From Mytilus galloprovincialis (taxonomy: Eukaryota > Mollusca > Bivalvia > Mytilida > Mytilidae): 64,000 nucleotides of DNA. The stretch covers positions 49,658,872-49,722,871 of the forward strand of contig NC_134844.1 in assembly GCF_965363235.1 (NCBI RefSeq), given 5' to 3'. The first letter of the stretch is position 1, and the number at the start of each line of letters is the position of its first letter. Under the pieces are notes generated by a model. The model had not been told where the DNA came from. It searched no databases and saw only the letters and a list, made by a program, of their open reading frames with translations. The position numbers and the translations under genes are program-made. Shown here one piece after another: positions 4,430 through 7,400 of the stretch.

Positions 4430-7400
4430 ATGTCCGGAGGTGGTGGTGAGATGTCAAAAATTCTTCCATATGTCACAGATAAAACTATTTCACGTCATCT
4501 AGGATTTACTGGTAGATCTATGGATCTTGGTCATGCAAGATCTTATTATAACCCAGCAAGGTATATATGAATTACATGTATAGACACATGCACACTGTTT
4601 TCAGTTTGGACGAATTGTGTTTATAGGCGAAAATTCAAGGCCAAAAGTTTTGAAGACAAATACCAAAAATAGTTTAGAGTTTCCAAACCAAAAGTGTTTT
4701 AACTGAACAATTGGAAGTTGCAACTTTGATTTTAGAAACCATGCGCATTATTTGATATCATTATATTTACAATAACATTATTAATAAAGCACGTCAACAA
4801 AGTTACATATTCTATAAACAGAAAATTTACAATAAAAATTTGGACACTTGTGAAAATATTGTCAAAAGCTTTCTACTAAGCACATAAAAATCCTTTATAA
4901 AACCAAATAACTTGCACAAATTGTTTAAAAAAGACCCTAACAAACCAAACGATATATGTTATCATACTTTATTTCGATTAACACTGTTTTTGATATATAT
5001 TGACTGTGTCATGTACACAATATAATTTACATCACAGAAATGCAGTCTATTCACGGTATACAACCCAGGACTGGGGTCACTCAAACAGCATGAACTATTC
5101 ACTCTCTGAAAAGGAAAGGTCATTTGCTGAGAGATTAAGGGCTGATGCTTGGAGAGCAGTGAAGGAAACTGATGCAAGAACACGCAACAGGCAAAATGAT
5201 ATCACAAAGAAACTCGGTAAGAAAAGCAGCAATATTAACATAATTTCCAGGTTCTATTAATATAAAATTAAGTAGAGATGGTATAATTGACAATGTCAAC
5301 TATTCATCTGAGTTTAAATAAACTGGACATAAGCAATAATAGACCAACGAACGGCTTTCAACAAAAATAAAACCCATTCTGTATTGTCTACCATAAAATG
5401 TCACGAAATGAAAAACGCAAACAATTCAGAGGAGAAAAATTTACGGTCTAATTTGTAACAAAACAATTTACGAAAACAAATACATGTATGACAGACATAA
5501 ACGAATACCACTGAACTATAGGCTCCTGACTTTGAACAGGCACATTAAGAATGTGGCGGGATAAAGCATGTTTGTTTAGTATTGATTTCTAATGAATAGA
5601 AGCAGAAACTATAGTCGTATCATTTTGTCGATGATTGATTTAAATATATAAAAAAAAAACATTCAATTTAGTTTTTGGAAAATAAATTCAGCATGTAAAC
5701 AAGTAAAACAAATATACCGTAGAACAACTTAATAAATTCTGAGTAAAACTATCATTACTTCGTTACAAAAATATACTTAAACGATTTTTTTTTCATTTCC
5801 TTCATGTAGTTTTTACATATTTAATATCTCGCATATGTATTGAGAACACATCTTATTTCACACTTCTGCAGTATATTTTTTTAAACCAATTATTTGCGTG
5901 TTGTAAGTATCAATCTGTTTTATGCAGTGTCCATACTATATTTTCTCTTCCAAAATCAAACTATTCACCTCAAAGAGTGCTGATTACGTTTTGCAGATGT
6001 AAATGCAAGATAATTATATCACGAAATCTTATTCACTTTCATATTGGTATTTACTTTATCATCAAATTAACTTACAGAACAAATATCGCATCTATAGTCT
6101 TTATACCAGCATTACATTGAGCATGCAAAACAAAAACATGTACTTATACAATTACACAAATGAAAATATTTTCTAATGCAAACCATGCTTTGAAAAATAG
6201 GTGCCTAAACGTTTATTCAAACTTTCAGCCGTTCACATTTTATTTGACATCTTTTGAATTAGATATTACCTTTATAAAAGTATACACCAACTTTTATCAT
6301 TATCTTATTTTTTTAATATGTCCGCTACAGGGGAACGAGTGGCTGATATTGCTTATTTGAAGGCCGAACTCAATACTGAAATTAATCTAATGGAGCAAGA
6401 AATGGTTAATTTGGAGGTATCATACAACGCATTTCTTCTATGCATGCCGTTTAACTACATTCATGGACTGTCATGTTAAATAATCTTGATATATAATTTT
6501 TATGTTAATTGTAAATAAACTATATTAGACATATGTCTCTGGTGGATAGTTGTCTCATTGACAATCACAAGGCATCTTCTTATTCAAATGTTCCTTTGGA
6601 AAAATCAACAAACGAAATTGTAATATTAAATTTTCAATCTGGCAAAACCACAACTGGTATAATTTCAGATAAAATGGATTCATTAAACAACACAAACATA
6701 TAAAAGGATATAAAAAACCTAATGTTTTAATTTTAGTATATATAACTACAGAAATTTACTTCAGAATAAAGAGGTATTTACATCAAGTTTATTTTTATGA
6801 AAGTCCATTTATTAGCTATCTTCATAGTGGTTCGAATATAACTATTAGGAGGAAGACATAAGAATAGAAATTCCTAAATTATCAATGAACAAATTCAGAT
6901 CTCCTAAATGAATCATTTATTATCGATGTCTTTAAATTAAGTAACATCAACCAATTTTTAGCTAATACCCTTACCTTCTTCTGTAGAAATGCCCTCCCCG
7001 TCTATTTCTTATGTCTTCTCCTAATATACAGACAGCCTATGGAATTTTCTTCTGTTCAACTCTATCCCTGTCTGTATGAAACTTTATATATTCCTAGGCG
7101 AGCGAGTTTACGACATTGCTTTCTGGAAAAGTGAACTTAACAACGAGGTTAATGCCATGGCAACTGAAATTGAGAATCTGAAGGTAAATTAAAACAAAAA
7201 TCAACAACGGACAAATTTAATTACAACAAGCTTGCATACTTGTTTGGAAATGGAATTCGTCTGTGTTATATGTCTTAACATGGGTCAATCAATCGATGAA
7301 ACGTGTTTCGTTTAGTGGTACTCTAATAGCCTCATTTTACCTATGAAAAATATACCAATCACATTTTAAAAAGAGATACTTTTGAATAAATGAGACAACT

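Follow-up and report, generated by a model that had tools for sequence, protein, structure and literature searches.

A tektin-3/5 type gene of Mytilus galloprovincialis with a candidate pair of mutually exclusive 86-nt exons

Gene structure and family assignment

The window, that is, the whole 64,000-nt stretch of DNA analysed, corresponds to C7:49658872-49722871. The genome searched comprised 1.38 Gb in 331 contigs. A tektin-3/5 type gene was located at window positions 4378-13780 of the forward strand. It comprises nine exons with AG/GT borders; one slot is filled by exon 3a or exon 3b, and either copy gave a joined open frame of 452 aa. The features were as follows.

4378-4560, forward strand: exon 1, ATG at 4430-4432 (AG/GT borders and joined frame)
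5038-5216, forward strand: exon 2, ending in phase 1 after the first base of a split glycine codon
6331-6416, forward strand: exon 3a, 86 nt, encoding (G) plus 28 residues, with a leucine codon TTG at 6357-6359
6417-7097, forward strand: intron between exons 3a and 3b, 681 nt, with TGCATG at 6441 and, near 6549, a portion of a dispersed repeat
7098-7183, forward strand: exon 3b, 86 nt, encoding (G) plus 28 residues, with the conserved tryptophan codon TGG at 7124-7126
8513-8650, forward strand: exon 4, phase 0 (joined frame)
9231-9301, forward strand: exon 5 (joined frame)
10190-10333, forward strand: exon 6 (joined frame)
10817-11039, forward strand: exon 7 (joined frame)
11522-11676, forward strand: exon 8 (joined frame)
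13549-13780, forward strand: exon 9, stop TAA at 13778-13780 (joined frame)

The frame of exon 1 is open above the ATG at 4430-4432, and a longer N-terminus is possible. Upstream of the gene, a 30-nt unit was present in three perfect copies (885-975).

Both predicted proteins matched the Pfam Tektin profile (PF03148) over its full length (1-383 of 383). The scores were 456.8 bits with 3a (isoform A) and 468.4 bits with 3b (isoform B). The best six matches among 21 solved tektin sequences were one chain named only 'Tektin' (the top match), three tektin-3 and two tektin-5. As five of these six are named tektin-3 or tektin-5, the protein was assigned to the tektin-3/5 type, an assignment made from best matches and not from a tree. 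When the 135-aa first part alone was used as the query, a sea urchin tektin ranked fourth among the solved tektins. The 8snb chains are from sea urchin.

The exon pair and its reading frames

Exons 3a and 3b shared their length (86 nt), GT-AG splice sites and entry and exit phases. Each was entered after one base of a glycine codon and left at a codon border. The two were identical at 53 of 86 nt (33 differing) and at 17 of 29 residues, the glycine of the split codon included. Because 86 nt is not a multiple of three, the frame is kept only by transcripts with exactly one copy. Joint inclusion gave a TGA at 7179-7181 and a product of 159 aa; joint skipping gave a stop at 8572-8574 in exon 4 and a product of 123 aa. 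The coordinates, equal lengths, phases, residue identity and both stops in the preliminary description all held against the sequence, and the exon borders were AG/GT. Its statement that a full-length tektin needs exactly one of the two exons was likewise borne out by the reading frames of the four possible products.

Over the 28 whole codons, 7, 9 and 16 differences fell at codon positions 1, 2 and 3, respectively, a skew that was only mild. dN was 0.30 (NG86) or 0.35 (ML). dS was undefined by NG86, returned without a value by YN00 and estimated at 3.2 by ML, the sole method giving a number, so silent sites are saturated. On these estimates the duplication looks old. In ungapped comparison of the flanking intron bases, 7 of 40 agreed upstream and 18 of 40 downstream.

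No other duplicated exon was detected in the gene by tblastn of exons 2 to 9 against the window; the strongest other matches joined homologous rod halves (exons 2/7 and 4/8). An intron scan of the WebScipio kind over the eight internal exons, with two rows for each, gave no new duplicate besides 3a. Of its 16 rows, 12 were the query exon itself read in a shorter or longer form, one was 3a and three, with negative scores, were unrelated. In a search for other species, a 402-aa query against genome contigs and viral contigs yielded no relative; of its 5 and 2 pattern matches, respectively, none was confirmed.

Residues changed in exon 3a

The exon segment was compared with a 24-row alignment consisting of 20 solved tektins and the four mussel paralogues described below; the second tektin-5, the 21st solved sequence, is not shown at column 10. 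This column held tryptophan in 24 of 24 other tektins and in 3b, and leucine in 3a. The tryptophan belongs to the FWKSEL stretch that the preliminary description named as kept in 3b and altered in 3a; its codon is TGG in 3b, and 3a has TTG. The fit to the tektin family was 28.2 for 3a vs 51.6 for 3b, which identifies 3b as canonical and 3a as derived. Seven heptad positions, picked by eye, were hydrophobic in 3a and 3b alike.

As described in the available text of PMC8595878, a tektin has four helices, of which 1A and 2A are of about 108 residues, twice 1B and 2B, and a central three-helix bundle. Counting residues would put 104-132 within the C-terminal half of helix 1A of the rod, and the segment was on this basis placed, as an inference, within the three-helix bundle. 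The preliminary description had the segment opening a coiled-coil block, a position with which the residue count does not agree.

Paralogues and origin of the exon

Four other main tektin loci were found: on C5 (L009), on C9 at 64.92 Mb (L010), on C9 at 15.6 Mb (L012) and on C1 (L013). All four gave matches along most of the Tektin profile, the last profile part of L013 being covered at most partly by the searches. The first-half exons matched tektin-1 best for L009, tektin-4 for L012 and tektin-2 for L013. For L009 and L012 a sea urchin chain, labelled simply 'Tektin', ranked first, and the named tektins came next. L010, 57% identical across 141 residues to the protein encoded in the window, was taken as the second tektin-3/5 type gene. 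The five tektin loci of this genome agree with the five ancestral tektins of spiralians, tektin-3/5A and tektin-3/5B among them, that are given in the available part of PMC6357514.

Two further matches were recorded. At L011 (C9:64960000-64969900, approximately 6652-7287), about 42 kb beyond L010, two C-terminal exons of tektin-3/5 type were matched; this is probably a partial tandem duplicate. At L014 (C2:26160500-26170000, minus strand) an open frame of 167 aa matched the tektin profile with 32.9 bits, below the cut-off, and is possibly a remote coiled-coil relative.

DNA searches of the genome gave a single match each for 3a and 3b, at this locus. Protein searches with 3a returned 3a itself and 3b and none of the four paralogues. 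Searches with 3b returned 3b itself, 3a and, weakly, L010, L009 and L012 (E 0.002-0.13). No further copy of either exon was thus found in the genome by DNA or protein search. Over the exon segment, L009 shared 12 identities with 3a and 13 with 3b.

The intron before the pair was present at the same position and in the same phase in the tektin-1-like L009 (where its donor follows AAATTG G and its acceptor precedes AA CAA AGA) and was absent from that place in L010, L012 and L013. The intron after the pair was absent from all four paralogues. On the simplest reading of this distribution, the duplicated exon would be bounded by one old and one younger intron.

Splice sites and possible mechanisms

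Mechanisms for mutually exclusive exons are listed in the consulted parts of PMC6071210 and PMC5740500. A too-short intron, for which PMC5740500 gives a distance from donor to branch point of less than 50 bp, was ruled out, as 681 nt separate 3a and 3b; this does not bear on whether the pair belongs to the class. As to U2/U12 incompatibility, all splice sites are GT-AG by their terminal dinucleotides. Frame-dependent removal of wrong transcripts fits the predicted products, and splicing factors may regulate the choice.

No clear competing docking-selector RNA pairing emerged from single-genome whole-intron folding. The duplex of intron 2 with the 3a-3b intron scored -165.1 vs -149.3 (sd 9.3) for shuffled sequences, 3 of 40 shuffles being as strong; for the other two whole-intron duplexes, 29 of 40 and 21 of 40 shuffles were as strong or stronger. 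Positions 5217-8512 contained 26 inverted-repeat pairs, counted without a control.

Of the eight donors scored, that of 3a agreed least with the consensus (5 of 9 positions); that of 3b agreed at 7 of 9. Pyrimidines occupied 13 of the 19 positions before the 3a acceptor and 11 of 19 before that of 3b. The TGCATG at 6441, an RBFOX-like motif, lies 25 nt after 3a and is one of 5 in bases 1-14000; it was noted after looking and is therefore weak evidence. The sequence GTTGTCTCATTGNCAATCA was found at 6549-6567 in the 3a-3b intron and at five other places, that is, six times in the window with at most 3 mismatches (0.07 expected). It is a dispersed repeat.

Chance similarity and constraint on exon 3a

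The forward strand of the window had 45 open AG-86-GT candidates, a count that takes in 3a and 3b, and the reverse strand had 37. Relative to the self score of 3b, 3a scored 0.55 and the next best window candidate 0.00. The best score in 40 random 64-kb sequences, generated from a third-order Markov chain of the window and scanned on one strand, was 0.10. The similarity of 3a and 3b is far beyond chance.

The strongest alternative to use of both exons is that splicing now takes up 3b alone and that 3a is a duplicate in decay, lost from the mRNA. Such a history would suit the leucine in place of the family-wide tryptophan, the weakest of the donors scored (5/9) and the poorer family fit, and a recent loss of use would be invisible in one genome. 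It has to be set against an open frame, an exact length, AG/GT borders and a residue similarity that have all been kept at 38% nucleotide divergence. Decay was simulated. When 3b drifted without constraint to 33 differences, all change being placed on 3a, the frame remained open in 24% of 20,000 runs, at least 17 identical residues were kept in 1 of 20,000 and an equal BLOSUM score was reached in none of 20,000. With drift started from 3a, neither at least 17 identical residues nor an equal BLOSUM score was reached in 20,000 runs.

In a kinder simulation the 3b side took silent changes first (4,000 runs per setting). The final version used the 24-row tektin alignment, including an L009 row starting with Glu and with one tektin-5 row added. 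Copies that were open and as similar as 3a made up 0.1%, 0.3%, 1.1%, 2.1% and 5.8% of runs with 8, 12, 14, 16 and 18 silent changes, respectively. With equal tektin-family fit as an added requirement, the values were 0, 0.1%, 0.1%, 0.6% and 1.5%. An earlier version gave similar results, with at most 2.7% (open and similar) and 0.4% (with family fit) at 16 silent changes. Taken alone, retention of at least 17 identical residues was seen in 9.8% of runs when the silent changes numbered 16 and in 22% when they numbered 18. The seven core positions were all hydrophobic in 15-24% of decayed copies, and the hydrophobic core kept in 3a is weak evidence when taken alone.

Decay yields a copy as good as 3a most readily when the 3b side takes 18 silent changes, a setting beyond what the counts suggest, as only 16 third-position differences were seen. 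Protein-level constraint on 3a has support, though not proof, from the saturated silent change, the decay simulations and the fact that length and splice sites have been kept. Loss of 3a from the mRNA is considered unlikely.

Preferred explanation

The gene is best explained as one of tektin-3/5 type with a tandemly duplicated internal exon, the copies of which are probably spliced as alternatives. Transcripts with exactly one 86-nt copy would keep the frame and yield two 452-aa tektins. In transcripts with both copies or neither, the stops would lie upstream of at least 5 exon junctions, and these transcripts would be expected to enter nonsense-mediated decay. Decay of the mRNA is expected where stops lie well before the last exon junctions. 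The two isoforms would differ at 12 of 29 residues, in a part that within the central bundle would pack against helices 1B and 2A. Use of 3b would give the canonical tektin. Use of 3a would retain the heptad hydrophobics and bring in leucine for the family-wide tryptophan, together with the other changed residues. In sperm or in a particular cilium, this would be likely to alter the packing of the tektin with luminal proteins or with the filaments next to it.

The early stops of both wrong choices (159 and 123 aa) would also suit a pair that mainly controls dose, joint inclusion or skipping giving unproductive mRNA and the difference in protein being secondary. A poison exon, however, needs neither protein homology nor equal length, and 3a has both; this explanation is regarded as very improbable. 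That 3a was brought in from another gene copy or haplotype by the gene model or the assembly is scarcely credible, even with a single assembly as the basis, since a genome search matched each of the two exons a single time, at this locus, their 33 differences in 86 nt are far beyond allelic difference, and a second copy of the tektin gene is absent among the 30 tektin matches listed.

Comparison with known exon systems

Frame-enforced mutually exclusive exons are well known as a kind. The WebScipio work (PMC3228551, consulted in part) uses similar length, conserved splice-site type and frame, and homologous encoded sequence as its criteria, and the pair shows all three (86 and 86 nt; AG/GT and phases; 17 of 29 residues identical). 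In a control of that study, 90 of 16,180 fly X-chromosome exons with an annotation as constitutive or differentially included share these features. In the human data of PMC5740500 (likewise in part), 6,541 candidates led to 1,399 validated exons, so that a candidate based on homology is not yet a case. The same source gives 60% of human clusters as having lengths not divisible by three, and frame enforcement is therefore ordinary. Like known mutually exclusive homologous exons, 3a and 3b are internal exons that lie next to each other; they agree in length, phase and splice type, encode the same part of the protein and break the frame if both are included. Unlike them, they lie in a different gene family, and the tektin pair is known here from sequence alone. 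A term search of the main texts of PMC3228551 and PMC5740500 found no word beginning with 'tektin'.

Exon 10 of oyster alternative oxidase (PMC5589949, available in part) is likewise a tandem exon duplication in a bivalve that yields proteins of the same size. In both systems the second copy is more conserved and the first is changed around key sites. The oyster copies are last exons under 3' alternative splicing, with mRNA shown and a response to stress, whereas the tektin exons are internal, frame-enforced and recognised from sequence.

Vertebrates have two versions of tektin-3/5, one of them restricted to sperm, in the form of tektin-3 and the sperm-specific tektin-5 (parts of PMC6357514 and PMC13066092). 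There the versions arose by gene duplication and concern the whole protein; the mussel pair concerns 29 residues of one gene.

No report of mutually exclusive exons in a tektin was found in open-licence PMC papers, in keeping with the remark in the preliminary description that no such switch was known. None appeared in the accessible parts of PMC9803972, PMC5368703, PMC4759005 and PMC11834534, and the main text of the tektin survey PMC6357514 held no word beginning with 'splic', 'exon' or 'isoform'. A predicted isoform pair may already stand unremarked in an annotated-isoform database. The novelty lies in the gene family and in a tryptophan, otherwise kept, that one version only has lost.

Possible function of the exon switch

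Tektins are structural proteins of cilia and sperm tails; inside the doublets of cilia they build a hyperstable bundle of filaments. The pair may bear on how the tektin bundle differs between cilia and sperm. A 29-residue exon switch would be a natural swap experiment, in which one gene keeps the rest of the protein the same and changes a single patch. One residue of that patch is, in the sequences compared, otherwise retained all the way from sea urchin to mammals. A switch of 3a and 3b between tissues is a good hypothesis. A more specific version, put forward tentatively and judged rather less likely than its opposite, is an ancient exon switch in one tektin-3/5 gene of mussels, and perhaps of bivalves or spiralians, in which the tryptophan-less 3a rod would be built only into a particular axoneme, that of sperm or of one gill cilium type, and would change contacts in the bundle. 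If true, splicing would here do what vertebrates did by duplicating tektin-3 to give a sperm tektin-5. Mice without sperm tektin-5 are fertile (PMC13066092, in the part available), so that a tektin-3/5 variant might matter little.

Other repeats in the window

Tandem arrays at 16413-16590 and 21424-21683, about 5 kb apart, had a common 36-nt unit in different phases. A further array at 28782-30176 consisted of 19.4 copies of a 72-nt unit with 90% matches; as 72 is a multiple of three, this array may be a coding repeat.
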